Shown in pieces: positions 1-36,837 of a DNA stretch of 37,548 nt. A model generated the notes under the pieces. That model was given only the letters and a program-made list of their open reading frames with translations. It was not told the DNA's origin and did not search any database. Made by a program: the position numbers and the translations under genes. The stretch's first letter is position 1; each line of letters opens with the position of its first letter. This DNA is from Pseudobdellovibrionaceae bacterium (GTDB taxonomy: Bacteria > Bdellovibrionota > Bdellovibrionia > Bdellovibrionales > Bdellovibrionaceae): the NCBI GenBank assembly GCA_947449255.1, contig CANFQX010000024.1:1-37548 (forward strand). Direction: 5' to 3'.

Positions 1-150
1 AAGGGCGAATTAACCCTGTGGCATGTTTTTCATGGAGCTTTGGGGTTGGTGGGTCGCTTTTAGTGGGGTTATTTCTGCTGCTCTCGGTTTGACTTGATCT
101 GGCCATCCTGAGCGGCCTTCCAGAAGCGCATCGTGCGCTTCTGGGCGAAG
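1..150 (+). repeat. Left-edge fragment of the compound repeat unit (copy A)
   Basis: This is the 3' part of the unit seen complete near 878-1350. It begins inside ORF2 at the KGELTLWHVF segment and ends after the REP-like hairpin at 120-144 (10-bp perfect stem CCAGAAGCGC / GCGCTTCTGG, loop ATCGT). ORF2 here is closed early at GRF-stop because one T is missing from the T-run that the 38-residue version at 1174 reads through. The rest of the unit lies outside the window. There is no T-tract after the hairpin, so it is not a classical intrinsic terminator. Confidence 0.85.
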
Positions 151-778: not shown

Positions 779-954
779 AAAGTCTAAAGGCACTTATTTT
801 GCGTGTGTGCAGGAAGTTTGTTTTGTCGATATCAGACTTGATTTTCGGATCTTGAATTGTTTTTTTATGTTCAAATTGAATTTAACTGGGGCATGGGCTG
901 CGACGGAAATTGCACAAGCCTAAAACTGACCTTACCAACCCTGAAACGAAGAAA

Positions 955-979
955 GACCCCCACCGATGCGATGGAGGTC
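955..979 (+). promoter_or_regulatory. Hairpin covering the Shine-Dalgarno of ORF1, copy B
   Basis: GACCCCC (955-961) can pair with GGAGGTC (973-979) with one mismatch and an 11-nt loop, so the strong ribosome site GGAGG would be buried in an RNA stem five nucleotides before the ATG at 984. The same bases occur at 2363-2387 and 3055-3079. This arrangement would limit translation of the hydrophobic protein unless the stem is opened. The pairing is read from sequence; the regulatory effect is inferred. Confidence 0.5.
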
Positions 980-983
980 AAAA

Positions 984-1106
984 ATGAACAATTTTATCTA
1001 CAGACAAGATAAGATTCGGCGTTTTTTGAAGGTAGCTAAAGTTTTTCTTGGGCTAGTTTTACTGTCCCTGAAGATCTTGAAGTTACTTTTTGAACTTTTA
1101 GAGTAG
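984..1106 (+). CDS. Small hydrophobic single-helix protein, repeat ORF1 copy B
   Basis: A 40-residue protein with a polar, basic N-terminus (RQDKIRRFLKVAKV, residues 7-20) followed by a hydrophobic helix (FLGLVLLSLKILKLLFELLE). GGAGG lies ahead of the ATG with ideal spacing. I do not recognise the family. Compared with copies at 2392 and 3084, the differences from residue 7 onwards are mostly synonymous (ctt/tta, ctg/ctt, aag/aaa twice) or conservative (F/L, S/A), and the one indel is a whole codon, so the frame appears to be under selection. Likely location is the inner membrane. Size, basic-plus-helix layout and the sequestered ribosome site resemble type I toxins in style only; no antisense RNA can be shown from sequence. 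Confidence 0.6.
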   Translation: MNNFIYRQDKIRRFLKVAKVFLGLVLLSLKILKLLFELLE

Positions 1107-1173
1107 GGCGCTTTTGGTGCGTTTTGAGTTTGTACGATTTTGGATGTTTTGTTTTTTTGCAGGACTTTCTTAA

Positions 1174-1290
1174 ATGGATATTGAACTCGACCAGCGGAAG
1201 GGCGGATTAACCCTGTGGAATGTTTTTCATGGAGCTTTGGGGTTGGTGGGTCGTTTTTTAGTGGGGTTATTTCTGCTGCTCTCGGTTTGA
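1174..1290 (+). CDS. Small membrane peptide, repeat ORF2 copy B (intact)
   Basis: A 38-residue reading frame, MDIELDQRKGGLTLWNVFHG followed by a hydrophobic stretch ending LVGLFLLLSV. The N-terminal third is charged and the rest would form one membrane helix. The ATG follows AGGA at a long spacing of about 9-10 nt. The gene starts 67 bp after ORF1 in the same direction, so both could be on one transcript. Copies at 1 and 3271 stop after 28 residues owing to one lost T, and the copy at 2581 is interrupted, so only this copy keeps the full helix. I do not recognise the family, and it is possible that the 28-residue form is the ancestral one. Confidence 0.45.
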   Translation: MDIELDQRKGGLTLWNVFHGALGLVGRFLVGLFLLLSV

Positions 1291-1406
1291 CTTGATCTGG
1301 CCATCCTGAGCGGCCTTCCAGAAGCGCATCGTGCGCTTCTGGGCGTAGTTTGGGGATTGTTTGGGGATTTTTTTGGGTGTAGGCTAGGCCTATGGCTGGC
1401 TTTATT

Positions 1407-1640
1407 TTAGGCTGCTTTTAATTTTTTTAGACCGTCTGCGATGAGCAGTCTCATTAACACTTGATAGGGGATGCCTTTGTTTGCAGCGATCTCTTTGAGC
1501 TCTTTTAGCATTTCTTCTTCTAAGGCAATGCTGGTGGGTTTGCGGCGGGCACCTTTGAGGCGGCTGAGACCGGCAATTATTTCTTTCGAGTCGAAATCGA
1601 TGCGGTCATAGGCTTTTAAGCGTTTTACTGATTTTTTCAT
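1407..1640 (-). CDS. brnA: BrnA-type antitoxin (second BrnTA module)
   Basis: 77 residues, starting MKKSVKRLKAYDRIDFDSKE and ending with the ribbon-helix-helix-like segment PTSIALEEEMLKELKEIAAN followed by KGIPYQVLMRLLIADGLKKL. The ATG at 1638-1640 is preceded by AAAGGA at good spacing; the frame is open further upstream to 1751 but that part lies inside brnT. It overlaps brnT by 35 nt. It is clearly related to the BrnA at 177-419 in its C-terminal half (shared PTSIALxE and GIPYQVLxR) while the N-terminal parts differ, so this is a diverged module and not a recent duplicate. Role, by family, is antidote and autorepressor. Confidence 0.85.
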   Translation of the reverse strand: MKKSVKRLKAYDRIDFDSKEIIAGLSRLKGARRKPTSIALEEEMLKELKEIAANKGIPYQVLMRLLIADGLKKLKAA

Positions 1641-1959
1641 ACAAAGTCCTTTCTTTTCGGCTGGCGGCTCTTCCGCTGATAGGGCGCACTCGTCCATCTC
1701 GCAGTGTAAATACAACTGACAGCATTCGGCCTGTCTCTGTAGGTCCAACAATACACAGACGCTCTTCGTTAACAGCAGGTGTAATTTGCCGACCCACCGT
1801 TACGGCTAATTTCATTTCAAAAACAGACTCAATTTCATTCAATCCAACATCATGCTTATGGGTGCTTTTCTTGCTGTTGCCTGCGTCCCACTCAAATTCG
1901 AAAGTTTGCGCTTGCTGATACCAATAGGCTAGCCACAGAAGAAATTTAAATTGTGCCAT
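1606..1959 (-). CDS. brnT: BrnT-type ribonuclease toxin (second BrnTA module)
   Basis: 117 residues with BrnT landmarks: FEWD near residue 22, KHDVGLNEIESVFEM, EERLCIVGPTETGRMLSVVF and RVRPISGRAASRKE. It starts with ATG at 1957-1959 after a weak GGAATTAAG site. As in the first module, an N-terminal extension rich in aromatic residues (MAQFKFLLWLAYWYQQAQT) comes before the FEWD start typical of the family; MAQ and the W-L-W spacing are shared by both copies. The module lies 65 bp beyond the hairpin of repeat copy B and points toward it, exactly as the first module does with copy A. Confidence 0.87.
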   Translation of the reverse strand: MAQFKFLLWLAYWYQQAQTFEFEWDAGNSKKSTHKHDVGLNEIESVFEMKLAVTVGRQITPAVNEERLCIVGPTETGRMLSVVFTLRDGRVRPISGRAASRKERTLYEKISKTLKSL

Positions 1960-2003
1960 CTTAATTCCGCGTGCTTTTTGTCAATCAAATTCTCTAACTG
2001 TAC

Positions 2004-2019
2004 AATATAGTACACTATA
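2004..2019 (-). promoter_or_regulatory. Palindromic operator/promoter of second brnTA
   Basis: TATAGT-AC-ACTATA at 2006-2019 is a perfect 6-bp inverted repeat, partly overlapping a second near-palindrome that starts at GTAC just before it. It lies 47 bp upstream of the brnT ATG. By analogy with known BrnA autoregulation it is the likely operator. It shares the ACTATA half-site with the larger palindrome of the first module. Confidence 0.5.
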
Positions 2020-2070
2020 CTAGATAGCAACTTTTTTATGATTGTTGGAGATTGCTGAGGTGTATTTAAT

Positions 2071-2140
2071 GCTGCCCTCGGCTGACTTAGTGTGGTCATC
2101 CTGAGCGGCTGCCTAGAAGCGCATCGTGCGCTTCTGGAAG
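2071..2140 (+). repeat. Fragment of the compound repeat unit (3' end only)
   Basis: It matches the end of the unit: a degenerate GCTGCCCTCGGCTGACTTAG, then CATCCTGAGCGG and the hairpin AGAAGCGC-ATCGT-GCGCTTCT at 2115-2135. The variant GACTTAGTGTGG is shared with the fragment near 4891 but not with copies A-D (GACTTGATCTGG), so two subtypes exist. Confidence 0.7.
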
Positions 2141-2391
2141 AAGTGGCTCTCAAACATCCACTTGGGTGGCCGGTAAGTGCAATTGTCCATCAACTAAAAT
2201 TTATTGCGGTGAGTGGCAAAAAGGTACCAAAAAGGTACGGCGTACCTGATGGATCTGGTGCTCGGACTTATGTAGGTTATCGAACTGAATTTAACTGGGG
2301 AATGGGCTGAGACGGAAATTGCTTAAGCCTAAACTGACCTTGCCAACCCCGAAACAAAGAAAGACCCCCACCGATGCGATGGAGGTCAAAA

Positions 2392-2514
2392 ATGACTAAT
2401 CTTCTCTCAAGACAAGATAAGATTCGGCGTTTTTTGAAGGTAGCTAAAGTTTTTTTAGGGCTAGTTTTACTGGCTCTTAAAATCTTGAAGTTACTTTTTG
2501 AACTTTTAGAGTAG
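2392..2514 (+). CDS. Small hydrophobic single-helix protein, repeat ORF1 copy C
   Basis: A 40-residue homologue of the protein at 984-1106, beginning MTNLLSRQDKIRRFLKVAKV and ending ILKLLFELLE. The strong GGAGG site at 2381-2385 and the hairpin that can bury it are conserved. From residue 7 onwards only one residue differs from copy B (A for S at position 28), while three codons differ silently. Predicted to be an inner-membrane peptide with a cytoplasmic basic end. Function unknown. Confidence 0.6.
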   Translation: MTNLLSRQDKIRRFLKVAKVFLGLVLLALKILKLLFELLE

Positions 2515-2580
2515 CGCGCTTTTGGTACTTTGAGTTTTGTACGATTTTGGATGTTTTGTTTTCTGGCAGGACTTTCTTAA

Positions 2581-2802
2581 ATGGATATTGAACTCGACCA
2601 GCGGAAGGGCGGATTAACCCTGTGGCATGTTTTTCATGGAGCTTTGGGGTTGGTGGGTCACTTTCTGAAATCTATTTCTAAATCCAAGCTAAATTCTAAT
2701 GCGGTGAGTGGCAAAAAGGTACGGAGTACCCGTTGCATGGAGCTTTGGGGTTGGTGGGTCGTTTTTAGTGGGGTTATTCCTGCTGCTCTCGGTTTGACTT
2801 GA
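2581..2802 (+). pseudogene. Repeat ORF2 copy C, interrupted
   Basis: The frame starts like the 38-residue ORF2 (MDIELDQRKGGLTLWHVFHG) and is intact to LVGH, then runs into inserted repeat DNA and continues by chance to a stop at 2800-2802, giving a 73-residue composite. A second partial ORF2 (from the repeated GGAGCTTTGGGG) follows in another frame with the same one-T loss as copies A and D. The composite has no continuous membrane helix like copy B, so I read it as a broken copy. Confidence 0.55.
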
Positions 2803-3083
2803 TCTGGCCATCCTGAGCGGCCTTCCAGAAGCGCATCGTGCGCTTCTGGGCGAAGCCTGGGGATATAGGGACGAGCTGTTCATTTTTATTCTGAAACAAA
2901 ATTCTAATGCGGTGAGTGGCAAAAAGGTACGGCGTACCTGATGAATCTGAAGGTCGGACTTATGAAGGTTTTCAAAATGAATTTAACTAGGGCATGGGCT
3001 GTGACGGAAATTGCTAAAGCCTAAACTGACCTTGCCAACCCTGAAACGAAGAAAGACCCCCACCGATGCGATGGAGGTCAAAA

Positions 3084-3203
3084 ATGACAAATCTTCTCAA
3101 CCAAGATAAGATTCGGCGTTTTTTGAAGGTAGCTAAAGTTTTATTAGGGCTAGTTTTACTGGCTCTGAAAATCTTGAAATTACTTTTTGAACTTTTAGAG
3201 TAG
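3084..3203 (+). CDS. Small hydrophobic single-helix protein, repeat ORF1 copy D
   Basis: 39 residues, MTNLLNQDKIRRFLKVAKVL followed by LGLVLLALKILKLLFELLE. Relative to the other copies it has lost exactly one codon (Arg) near residue 7 and carries F to L at one site, plus silent changes. The GGAGG site (3073-3077) and its possible pairing partner GACCCCC (3055-3061) are retained. Function unknown; membrane location predicted from the 20-residue hydrophobic helix. Confidence 0.6.
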   Translation: MTNLLNQDKIRRFLKVAKVLLGLVLLALKILKLLFELLE

Positions 3204-3270
3204 GGCGCTTTTGGTGCGTTTTGAGTTTGTACGATTTTGGATGTTTTGTTTTCTGGCAGGACTTTCTTAA

Positions 3271-3357
3271 GTGGATATTGAACTCGACCAGCGGAAGGGC
3301 GAATTAACCCTGTGGCATGTTTTTCATGGAGCTTTGGGGTTGGTGGGTCGCTTTTAG
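3271..3357 (+). CDS. Repeat ORF2 copy D, shortened to 28 residues
   Basis: It starts with GTG instead of ATG (VDIELDQRKGELTLWHVFHG) and stops at GRF because the T-run at 3352 is one base short of the copy at 1174. The hydrophobic tail found in copy B lies out of frame downstream. Either this is a damaged gene or the short form is also made; the sequence cannot decide. Confidence 0.3.
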   Translation: MDIELDQRKGELTLWHVFHGALGLVGRF

Positions 3358-3563
3358 TGGGGTTATTTCTGCTGCTCTCGGTTTGACTTGATCTGGCCAT
3401 CCTAAGCGGCCTTCCAGAAGCGCATCGTGCGCTTCTGGGCGAAGTGCTGGGGGGGATGCTGGAGGATGTTGATGGAGAGGCTTGGTGGTGGTTGGGCTGG
3501 TTTTCTAAAAAAACTGAATTGTTGGTGATGGATTAATTTTCTTATCTTTTATGGAAATTTATT

Positions 3564-3618
3564 TGCATAATTTCATGAAATTCTGCATAATTATTGCAGA
3601 GTTTCATGAAATTATGCA
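3564..3618 (+). promoter_or_regulatory. Two tandem 24-bp palindromes upstream of the AAA ATPase
   Basis: Two near-perfect palindromes, 3564-3587 and 3595-3618, share the core TTTCATGAAATT flanked by TGCA on both sides. Their centres are 31 bp apart, about three helical turns. A third, shorter TGCAGGATCTGCA follows at 3615-3627. They look like operator sites for a dimeric regulator acting on the ATPase gene. The binding protein is unknown. Confidence 0.6.
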
Positions 3619-3626
3619 GGATCTGC

Positions 3627-4826
3627 ATGAGAGGTGTTGGGTTGTCGAAATTTAAGCGGTGTTTAAAAATTGATGCTGTGTTGGAGCGCAAAAGTCTATT
3701 TCTGTTGGGGCCACGGCAAACGGGTAAAACAACCTATTTGGCGGACAAGTTTCAGGGGGCCTATGTTTTTAATTTATTAAAACCCGCCATCTTTTTAAAA
3801 TTTAAAACCAATCCAGGACTCTTGGGTGAAGAAATTGAATATCAGATTCGCAATAACAAGCAGAAGCTTTTTATTATTGATGAGATTCAGAAGGCCCCCG
3901 AACTCCTGGATGAGATTCACAATTTAATTGAAACTCATAAGTCCGTTCGGTTTATTTTAACTGGCAGCAGTGCAAGGAAGCTCAAGAAAGCTGGAGTGAA
4001 TTTATTGGGAGGTCGAGCAGCTCGATTTTACTTTCATCCGATTGTTTCCTATGAGTACGGATTTTCTAAATATGAAAAAGACTTAGTTAGAAATTTAACA
4101 TTTGGTTTTTTGCCACATATTTTGAATTCCAAGTCACCATGGGCTGACCTTGAAGACTATGTGGCTCTTTATTTAAAAGAAGAAATTCAACAGGAAGCCA
4201 CAGTGAGGTCCTTGGAGGGATTTTCGCGATTTTTAAACACGGTGGCGCTGACGAATGCTCAGCAGTTGAATTTTACCGAGCTTGGCAATGATGCGCAGGT
4301 CGCACCGCGAACGGTGCGTGAATACTATCAAGTCTTAGAAGACACGCTGGTGGGGCATATTCTGCCGGCATTTGAAAATACGGTGAAAAGAAAGGCCATG
4401 ACGACGGCGAAATTCTATCTCTTTGATCCGGGAGTCACCAATTTCCTATTGGGTCGGAAAACATTGTCGGCGAAGACACCGGAATTTGGAACCCTGCTAG
4501 AACAATCCATTTTTTGTGAGATCAAAGCCTTTCTGGATTATCACGCTATTTATGATTCGTTGTTTTATTGGCGGAGCACTTCGCTGATCGAAGTTGATTT
4601 TGTGGTGAAGGACACCAAGGGGGAGTGGCTGGGTATTGAAGTCAAGGCTGCAGAAGAGCCGCAACGAAAAGATTTTTCCGGGCTGCTAGCGCTTGAGGAA
4701 GATTTGCCGCTGAAGAATAAAATAGTCGTCTGCCAAACGAAAACGCCGCGAATAAACAAAGACAATATCGAAATTTTACCTGTTCGAAAATTTCTTGAGG
4801 ACCTTTGGGCGCGGAAGTGGATTTGA
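3627..4826 (+). CDS. AAA_14 / DUF4143 ATP-binding protein
   Basis: 399 residues from the ATG at 3627. Walker A GPRQTGKT (residues 28-35), Walker B KLFIIDE (80-86), sensor-like FILTGSS (109-115) and a C-terminal DUF4143 region ending in a PD-D/ExK-like patch (EVDFVV then WLGIEVKAA). This is the widespread AAA_14-DUF4143 family, often found near toxin-antitoxin and mobile genes, with no firmly assigned role. The frame is open from a TTG at 3594, but that lies inside the second palindrome; ATG 3627 has AGG ahead, and TTG 3642 has GAGAGG at 7 nt and gives the N-terminus most like relatives, so the true start is 3627 or 3642. It is flanked by repeat hairpins at 3414 and 4934, like a cargo gene. 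Confidence 0.85.
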   Translation: MRGVGLSKFKRCLKIDAVLERKSLFLLGPRQTGKTTYLADKFQGAYVFNLLKPAIFLKFKTNPGLLGEEIEYQIRNNKQKLFIIDEIQKAPELLDEIHNLIETHKSVRFILTGSSARKLKKAGVNLLGGRAARFYFHPIVSYEYGFSKYEKDLVRNLTFGFLPHILNSKSPWADLEDYVALYLKEEIQQEATVRSLEGFSRFLNTVALTNAQQLNFTELGNDAQVAPRTVREYYQVLEDTLVGHILPAFENTVKRKAMTTAKFYLFDPGVTNFLLGRKTLSAKTPEFGTLLEQSIFCEIKAFLDYHAIYDSLFYWRSTSLIEVDFVVKDTKGEWLGIEVKAAEEPQRKDFSGLLALEEDLPLKNKIVVCQTKTPRINKDNIEILPVRKFLEDLWARKWI

Positions 4827-4890: not shown

Positions 4891-4965
4891 GCTGCTCTCG
4901 GTTTGACTTAGTGTGGCCATCCTGAGCGGCCTTCCAGAAGCGCATCGTGCGCTTCTGGGCGAAGT
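4891..4965 (+). repeat. Fragment of the compound repeat unit (3' end only, copy E)
   Basis: Only the last part of the unit is present: GCTGCTCTCGGTTTGACTTA, GTGTGGCCATCCTGAGCGGC and the hairpin at 4934-4958. It belongs to the GACTTAGTGTGG subtype, like 2071-2140. About 50 bp later the GCGGTGAGTGGCAAAAAGG element recurs. Confidence 0.8.
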
Positions 4966-5033
4966 GGTGGGGAAAAAGGGATGGTCTGCTCTGCTCTTTT
5001 TTATTCTAAACTAAATTTTAATGCGGTGAGTGG

Positions 5034-5058
5034 CAAAAAGGTACGGCGTACCTTTTTG
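5034..5058 (+). terminator. Palindromic terminator (GGTAC element)
   Basis: An 11-bp perfect stem, CAAAAAGGTAC / GTACCTTTTTG with a GGC loop, ends in a five-T run in both directions, fitting a bidirectional intrinsic terminator. It is the end of the dispersed GCGGTGAGTGGCAAAAAGG element that also precedes repeat copies C and D, where the T-run has been replaced by CTGATG. It would close the AAA ATPase transcript and separate the island from rfbA. Confidence 0.6.
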
Positions 5059-32731: not shown

Positions 32732-33859
32732 TCAGCGATCAAGATCTCTCCACCAATAACCGTGGGTTTCTTTTGTACGGAAAGTATTGTGTACTTTGCA
32801 AAGACAGCTCAAGTTGGCTTCATCATGGGAACCGCCCTGACTCCAAGCCAACTTATGATCGATTTCCAACTGATAATGACTTTCACAGCGCTTTCCATCT
32901 GAGCCAATAAATTCACAGCGGCCTTGCGCTTTTTGAAAAACAAGACGTCTTGTCTCGATCGGAATATAGCGAGAGGGTTTTTTGATTTCGCAGGGCTTCG
33001 AGGATCGGTGTTTTGTTTGAATTTTCGATCCTTTGCTGCGGCCTTTTTTGTTTTTTAAAATTTCTACGCTCTCTTTAGAGATTTTTTTCAATATTTTGCT
33101 TAAGTCCCCGTCGGGGATCTCATGACTCAAAAGACTTTTAACTTCTTGCAAAAGCTGCAAAGTTTCTTGATCGACAGTCACTTGCAACAAGGTGTGATTT
33201 GCAGTGAGAGGCTTTTCTTTATTGGCAGGAAGTGCTGCCGTAGGATTTAGAGTGACAAAAGCTGCTTGCGCCTCTTTTTGAGTTTTGCCTTTGACGGTAT
33301 CAAAAATGTCTTTTTTCTCTTGAAAACTTAAAACTGCTTTTTTTTCTGATTCAAGTTTGCGAATAAAGCCCTGAGTGGCCGCCATGGTGGACAGGTTAGT
33401 TTCCCCCGAAACAAGTGCAGCTCTGGCTTCGGGAATAGATTGAATCAACTTCATGGCGTTGATGCGCTGATAGGCCGAGGATTCACTGAGATGAAAATAT
33501 TTAACTAAAAATTCAAAAAGACTTCCGTAACCAAGCTGCGCATAGATTCTTCTGGAATTCATTTCTTGCAAATTTAGCAAGATCAAATCGCCCAAGCGTT
33601 TTTCACGCAGAATAAGATTTTTAAATCCTTCAATCAGAGCCGCATCGCTGAGTTTTTTGAGGTTGTTTAATTCGACTGCTTCTGACTTTGAGAAACTTAA
33701 AATGTTCGTATTCGTATTCATATTCATATTCGTATTCGTATTCGTATTCATATTCATAGACATGTTCGTATTCATATTCGTATTTGTATTTATGGACATG
33801 TTCATATTCGTATTTGTATTTGTATTTATGGACATGTTCATATTCGTATTCATCCTCAT
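32732..33859 (-). CDS. HNH endonuclease family protein with a repetitive N-terminus
   Basis: 375 residues. Residues 1-52 consist of Asn-Thr/Asn-Met dipeptides encoded by a hexanucleotide repeat. A helical domain follows (NSRRIYAQLGYGSLFEFLVK, then YQRINAMKLIQSIPEARAAL), similar to DUF222/13E12-like endonuclease N-termini. The C-terminal HNH domain shows CEFIGSDGKRCES, LEIDHKLAWSQGGSHDEANL and SCLCKVHNTFRTKE, giving the H-N-H residues and four Cys. GAGG lies about 6 nt before the chosen ATG. A paralogue is at 36913-37548. Function (defence, homing or genetic exchange) is unknown. Confidence 0.88.
   Translation of the reverse strand: MRMNTNMNMSINTNTNTNMNMSINTNTNMNTNMSMNMNTNTNTNMNMNTNTNILSFSKSEAVELNNLKKLSDAALIEGFKNLILREKRLGDLILLNLQEMNSRRIYAQLGYGSLFEFLVKYFHLSESSAYQRINAMKLIQSIPEARAALVSGETNLSTMAATQGFIRKLESEKKAVLSFQEKKDIFDTVKGKTQKEAQAAFVTLNPTAALPANKEKPLTANHTLLQVTVDQETLQLLQEVKSLLSHEIPDGDLSKILKKISKESVEILKNKKGRSKGSKIQTKHRSSKPCEIKKPSRYIPIETRRLVFQKAQGRCEFIGSDGKRCESHYQLEIDHKLAWSQGGSHDEANLSCLCKVHNTFRTKETHGYWWRDLDR
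33704..33859 (-). repeat. Hexanucleotide microsatellite in the HNH gene
   Basis: About 26 imperfect copies of a 6-nt unit (ATGAAT, ACGAAT and variants such as ATAAAT) occupy the first 52 codons. Because the unit is six bases, gain or loss of copies keeps the frame and changes only protein length. The complementary strand and the +1 frame are also open here for trivial reasons. Confidence 0.9.
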
Positions 33860-36670: not shown

Positions 36671-36760
36671 CTGGAAAAATATGTAGTTCTCCAAGGTGAG
36701 AATCAGCGCTTTGATTGGATAATGTTTACTCCGCCCTTATCGATTCCCAGAAATATAATT

Positions 36761-36837
36761 CTCAGACCAATCTCAGACTAATCTCAGACTAATTGCAGAC
36801 TAATCTCAGACTAATTGCAGACTAATTTCAGACAAAC
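36761..36837. repeat. Seven 11-bp tandem repeats
   Basis: CTCAGACTAAT and variants (TGCAGACTAAT, TTCAGACAAAC) are repeated head to tail seven times downstream of the second HNH gene. The equivalent flank of the first HNH gene (about 32623-32655) has only two to three units, so copy number has changed. A 7-bp stem TTTCAGA/TCTGAAA closes the array. Confidence 0.85.

Follow-up and report, generated by a model that had tools for sequence, protein, structure and literature searches.

The window described here, 37,548 nucleotides (nt) of a Pseudobdellovibrionaceae bacterium (assembly GCA_947449255.1, contig CANFQX010000024.1, hereafter C24), carries near its start three copies of a repeated element built around a short open reading frame, ORF1, for a putative toxin peptide. 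The ORF1 copies lie on the forward strand at 984-1106, 2392-2514, and 3084-3203; the first encodes 40 amino acids (aa), and the third is one codon shorter than the other two. GGAGGTCAAAAATG is present with each of them. From residue 7 onward the copies differ by four silent codons, two replacements (F/L and S/A), and one codon deletion; this tally and the number of copies were already given in the initial annotation, and both proved exact on recount.

The source genome (G000, 3.21 Mb) contains six near-reference copies on contigs C24 and C33. Further copies lie at C33:716 (divergent), at C33:3-89 (truncated), and on C7. In all, the genome has about eight copies. Contig C33 stops within a leader, and the window begins within a trailer (1-60, forward strand), the end of a further unit that is cut by the contig end and whose leader probably lies at the end of C33. 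The two contigs are therefore probably neighbors, with one unit lost in the gap. The arrangement had been described as a tandem array; the units are indeed repeated, but not in simple tandem, as other genes stand between them (BrnTA twice in the window, Fic-like and nucleotidyltransferase-like genes on C33).

The ORF1 peptide family

With a permissive threshold (E ≤ 1), ORF1 finds matches in 35 of 100 relatives. Among 340 genomes from across the phylum, a family profile matches 38 (E ≤ 1e-5), all of them in one order, Bdellovibrionales. In total, 90 distinct homologues were collected; they are related by descent, so member counts given below are not independent. Many genomes hold several copies, up to 13, where some of the weaker matches may not be true family members. 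Genome G002 (3,988,594 bp) has one copy, at 3649112. Repeated elements are also seen at individual loci of relatives, with four units spaced by ~455-504 nt in L097 (G039:C129:130700-134000), three in L031, and two in L105.

The 90 members share the pattern M-x(7-16)-RRF-L-x3-K-x-[IV]-L-x-L-[VI]-L-L-x-L-[KE]-[IV]. Nearly all are 32-48 aa long (extremes 29 and 60), with a net charge of +5.5 and a mean maximal 15-aa hydropathy of 2.4, and AlphaFold models the peptide of copy 2 as one helix with a predicted local distance difference test (pLDDT) score of 95. The family thus has the small (<60 aa) hydrophobic peptide typical of type I toxin-antitoxin systems. The ratio of nonsynonymous to synonymous differences (pN/pS) over 340 pairs is 0.52 for ORF1 overall and 0.40 in its 3′ half, a region showing no other constraint; judging from this value, selection acts on the protein. 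The initial annotation regarded ORF1 as a maintained protein, a view borne out by the homologues and by pN/pS. It named frameshifts throughout ORF1 in other genomes as counterevidence; what is found instead is a handful of decayed copies, interrupted by one in-frame stop, among many intact ones. On comparative grounds, then, ORF1 is a real, selected gene for a cationic hydrophobic helix of 39-40 aa.

No family had been recognized for the element, and the searches agree. ORF1 peptides have no counterpart in Pfam, NCBIfam, or PDB, and 56 members searched against Pfam (E ≤ 1) hit no type I toxin family, HOK_GEF (hok) included. Rfam covariance models give no match at the gathering threshold in the window or at the relatives' loci, and plasmid and phage searches returned nothing. 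A degenerate leader pattern run against all species genomes retrieved Bdellovibrio-type records together with scattered unrelated ones, the latter probably by chance.

Predicted sense promoter and messenger RNA structure

A GG dinucleotide 10 nt ahead of GC is the −24/−12 signature of sigma54. In 70 leaders aligned on A[AT][AT]TGC, the two G residues are present at 83% each, exactly 10 nt before the GC; a T precedes them, and farther upstream nothing is conserved. We note that the A[AT][AT]TGC letters were imposed by the leader search, while the GG and the AAAA that follows are independent of it. Sense transcription would be expected to start 12-14 nt downstream of the GC, at the beginning of the 5′ pairing arm described below. 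RpoN is encoded in the source genome and in 119 of 129 genomes of the order. A sigma54-type sense promoter is therefore supported for the family. The window copies have weak sigma54-like elements (TGN-N10-GC) at the position of the family box, on the forward strand at 899-913, where the second G is missing, 2308-2322, and 3000-3014.

The leaders and trailers of relatives are free to diverge in sequence. At most loci the predicted messenger RNA (mRNA) nonetheless begins with 15-25 nt whose complement lies 70-155 nt beyond the stop codon, with a different sequence each time. Leaders score 30.4 for pairing with their own trailers versus 18.9 (standard deviation 3.6) with swapped ones (p = 2e-39), and the own pairing ranks within the top 1% for 50 of 88 members. 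Because family members are related, trailers were exchanged only between those with <50% protein identity. Pairing of the mRNA 5′ end with its 3′ end is thus supported by heavy covariation, giving the family the structured mRNA expected of a type I toxin-antitoxin system. An initial, energy-only duplex test was discarded as too permissive, and GNRA loops, which account for only 9 of 34 four-base loops, were not used as a strand marker.

In the window the pairing arms are CTGACCTTRCCAACCC and GGGGTTGGTGGGTC, located on the forward strand at 926-941 (the predicted mRNA 5′ end) and 1239-1252 in copy 1, 2334-2349 and 2646-2659 in copy 2, and 3026-3041 and 3336-3349 in copy 3. The minimum-energy fold of copy 2 (2334-2664, z = −4.7) forms both this panhandle and a hairpin over the Shine-Dalgarno sequence. 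Such hairpins (955-979, 2363-2387, and 3055-3079) resemble intrinsic terminators when read on the minus strand. Every leader scored has a start codon with a Shine-Dalgarno sequence; the excellent ribosome site reported initially is present in the window copies, but it is enclosed in the hairpin.

Predicted antisense promoter and terminator

Synonymous constraint in ORF1 is strong (z down to −26) from the start codon to +15 from an invariant Arg and about absent beyond. This Arg is encoded by CGN in 90 of 90 members, preceded by T in 99%. Read on the minus strand, the constrained letters spell TTTAG-N16-NCGAA inside the 5′ half of ORF1, close to the published FliA (sigma28) consensus of B. bacteriovorus, TTAAG-N16-CCGATA (PMC3627812). 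The site averages 7.72 of 11 matches to this consensus, compared with 6.02 ± 0.12 after synonymous codon resampling, and of the spacers from 12 to 20 the best is 16. No consistent canonical sigma70 promoter (TATAAT) was found antisense to ORF1, and the FliA form fits instead. In the window the putative promoter reads CTTTAG-N16-CCGAAT and lies on the minus strand at 1014-1041, 2422-2449, and 3111-3138; the source genome has six occurrences of this string, every one in an ORF1 copy.

We take genome G005 to be B. bacteriovorus HD100 and, from its kinship to G005, place the source genome in the same genus. HD100 contains TTTAG-N16-CCGAAA at 1338752-1338778, and the hexamer begins 14 nt upstream of the mapped APsRNA6 start; the publication lists APsRNA6 with a FliA promoter (PMC3627812). 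At the same distance the family has T (81%) followed by a purine (97%). The APsRNA6 site is an independent anchor for a FliA-type reading of the family site. Another small RNA of HD100, APsRNA3 (561854, L153), begins at TGTACACGTTG, the complement of a trailer motif, CAACGTGTACA, found in some members. It was considered as an orphan antitoxin and rejected, since nhmmer does not support it and no more than these 11 nt are common to it and the family; the overlap is too short to prove kinship.

Farther downstream, the antisense strand carries a hairpin of at least seven pairs in 69 of 70 members, with a mean of −19.1 kcal/mol versus −8.6 kcal/mol for shuffled sequences, and most of these hairpins are followed by TTTTTGCATTTT. 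This predicted intrinsic terminator overlaps the sense promoter, and only the antisense RNA could make use of it, because the 5′ arm of the inverted repeat is upstream of the predicted sense start. Promoter and terminator signals are thus conserved opposite the predicted toxin mRNA; a candidate cis-antisense RNA running from one to the other would have a median length of 100 nt. In the window, candidate antisense RNAs inferred from promoter to terminator span 945-1005 (~60 nt), 2353-2413, and 3045-3102 on the minus strand.

Interpretation and alternatives

We consider it quite likely that each unit is a type I toxin-antitoxin-like locus, with a sigma54 mRNA, a FliA-type antisense RNA, and a message locked by 5′-3′ pairing. 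Comparison among relatives supports ORF1, the long-distance pairing, both promoter signals, and the terminator. A possible new small-protein or type I toxin-like system had been proposed at the outset, and the antisense signals, the structured mRNA, the multiple copies, and the lack of a known family together support it well. We infer that both RNAs exist, that 3′ trimming activates the message, and that the antisense RNA neutralizes it; toxicity of the peptide is suggested by its type and by the layout of the locus. The sigma54 promoter would give an mRNA of ~250-330 nt encoding a cationic, mostly hydrophobic single-helix peptide of 32-48 aa that is expected to enter the inner membrane. Following the AapA/IsoA model (PMC6733600), the nascent mRNA would be held closed by local hairpins. 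The full-length mRNA would be inert, with its 5′ end paired to its 3′ end and the Shine-Dalgarno sequence in a local hairpin, and trimming of the 3′ end would render it translatable. From the opposite strand, the FliA-type promoter in the 5′ half of ORF1 would produce an antisense RNA of ~100 nt that covers the ORF1 start, the ribosome-binding site, and the 5′ pairing arm, ends at the terminator overlapping the sense promoter, and blocks or destroys the trimmed mRNA. For the window copies this RNA is predicted to be ~60 nt, with the Shine-Dalgarno hairpin as its end point.

Several observations weigh against this model. The window copies retain the position of the sense promoter box, but it reads TGN-N10-TTGC rather than TGG, which makes sigma54 control uncertain for them. 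They also have no canonical antisense terminator; the Shine-Dalgarno hairpin plus TTTCTTYGTT appears to take its place. Exact FliA-type patterns show no genome-wide enrichment over a reversed control, and the FliA match was recognized after the logo had been viewed, not predicted in advance. The excess of occluded Shine-Dalgarno sequences is modest (84% of leaders versus 66% in the control), and the mRNA of one relative folds no better than shuffled sequences (z = −0.23). Applied to MAFFT alignments, in which the paired arms vary in sequence and are misaligned, RNAalifold yielded no consensus fold, and it was replaced by the comparison of own and swapped pairings. Finally, no family member is detectable in HD100, so the published RNA-seq data for that strain are unusable for the family.

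The initial annotation proposed a two-peptide unit comprising ORF1 and a downstream ORF2, which is open in six of eight copies. This is scarcely credible. The three window copies of ORF2 start with ATG, ATG, and GTG and end at 38, 73, and 28 codons, the C7 copy has no start codon, and the divergent C33:716 copy has no frame at all. Trailers of relatives show no second conserved ORF, and ORF2 overlies the structured 3′ pairing region of the ORF1 mRNA. Judged by these frames, ORF2 is not a gene; only ORF1 is. The reverse proposal, that the element is a repeated or mobile structured non-coding RNA with an incidental ORF, accords with the strong RNA pairing, the synonymous constraint, and the multiple copies. 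We regard it as highly improbable given the low pN/pS in the half of ORF1 free of antisense constraint, the peptide pattern kept over 90 sequences with frames of 29-60 codons, and the start codon and Shine-Dalgarno sequence of all scored leaders.

A further alternative, which we think unlikely, is that the peptide, instead of being a self-toxin, regulates the life cycle or acts as a membrane effector, its appearance limited to one predatory phase by opposing sigma54 and FliA RNAs. Sigma54 and FliA promoters are both part of the flagellar cascade, their signals are conserved across the order, and B. bacteriovorus uses FliA as its attack-phase sigma factor (PMC3627812). Set against these points are the patchy distribution of the family, which is missing from HD100 and many close relatives, and the high copy number and decayed copies, which resemble an addictive or selfish module rather than a core developmental gene. 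Returning to the toxin-antitoxin-like locus, the element seems wired to both flagellar sigma factors, and a link between this pairing and the predatory cycle is speculation. In one such scheme, possible though somewhat doubtful, the mRNA would need sigma54 and the antisense RNA FliA, such that on exit from attack phase the antitoxin would be lost and the peptide thereby armed.

If correct, the model describes a new type I toxin-antitoxin family that is widespread in bacterial predators, for which we found no type I system described. Toxin and antitoxin would apparently be under two alternative sigma factors, and the antisense promoter may dictate toxin codons and perhaps residues, as the uniform CGN coding of the invariant Arg suggests.

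Neighboring genes and repeats

BrnT toxins adjoin the ORF1 copies (Pfam PF04365, E = 1e-17 and 5e-17); matches to BrnA/CopG antitoxins are weaker. The adjacency to BrnTA noted initially is therefore real, but BrnTA is not part of the element because homologues elsewhere sit in unrelated contexts. Interspersed with the units are two BrnTA pairs, an AAA_14/DUF4143 ATPase (Pfam), and, identified by eye, both a Fic-like protein and a regulator/nucleotidyltransferase-like pair (177-738, 1407-1959, and 3594-4826 of the window; 2578-3537 and 4309-5192 of L029). They form a toxin-antitoxin or defense cluster beside glycosyltransferase and rfbA-like genes. A near-perfect 24-nt inverted repeat (TGCATAATTTCATGAAATTCTGCA / TGCAGAGTTTCATGAAATTATGCA, 3564-3618) directly upstream of the DUF4143 ATPase gene is possibly an operator.

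The unit boundaries drawn initially took in an unrelated dispersed repeat, TGACTTGATCTGGCCATCCTGAGCGGC..CCAGAAGCGCATCGTGCGCTTCTGG, which includes a palindrome (CCAGAAGCGCATCGTGCGCTTCTGG), has ~40 copies in the genome, and is independent of the peptide element. In the window it occurs at 90-153, 1288-1351, 2083-2146, 2795-2858, 3384-3447, and 4904-4967. A second repeat, AATTCTAATGCGGTGAGTGGCAAAAAGGTACGGCGTACC with the palindrome GGTACGGCGTACC, often follows the peptide units (window 2192-2227, 2687-2722, 2895-2930, and 4994-5052; L029 4229-4268, 5894-5933, and 7433-7472). Tandem arrays are present at 33705-33851 (period 36 nt, 4.1 copies) and 36760-36833 (period 22 nt, 3.4 copies).

Comparison with known systems

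The element resembles the attack-phase small RNAs of B. bacteriovorus (APsRNA1-7 and merRNA) in its FliA-type promoter, and APsRNA6 shares TTTAG-N16-CCGAAA and the distance to the start; it differs in that nhmmer finds no relative of the element at APsRNA1-5 (best E = 5.6). In hok/sok, the 5′ end of the mRNA pairs with the 3′ end, the leader has a metastable structure, and an antisense RNA covers the leader. The 5′-3′ pairing and the predicted antisense RNA over the leader recall this system, whereas ORF1 has no Pfam match to known type I toxin families and no overlapping mok-like reading frame is seen in the element.

Hok has been compared with AapA (PMC6733600). In AapA/IsoA, a membrane peptide of 30-40 aa is encoded by an mRNA kept inert by 5′-3′ pairing, and an antisense RNA of ~80-100 nt starts from a promoter inside the toxin ORF (PMC6733600). 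The present element shares with this system of Helicobacter (Epsilonproteobacteria) the several chromosomal copies, the short membrane-type peptide, the 5′-3′ pairing, and the intra-ORF antisense promoter. The peptide appears to differ, as it has no Pfam or NCBIfam relative, AapA itself not having been compared. The element further belongs to another order, its promoters resemble those used by sigma54 on the sense strand and FliA on the antisense strand, and its predicted antisense terminator overlaps the sense promoter.

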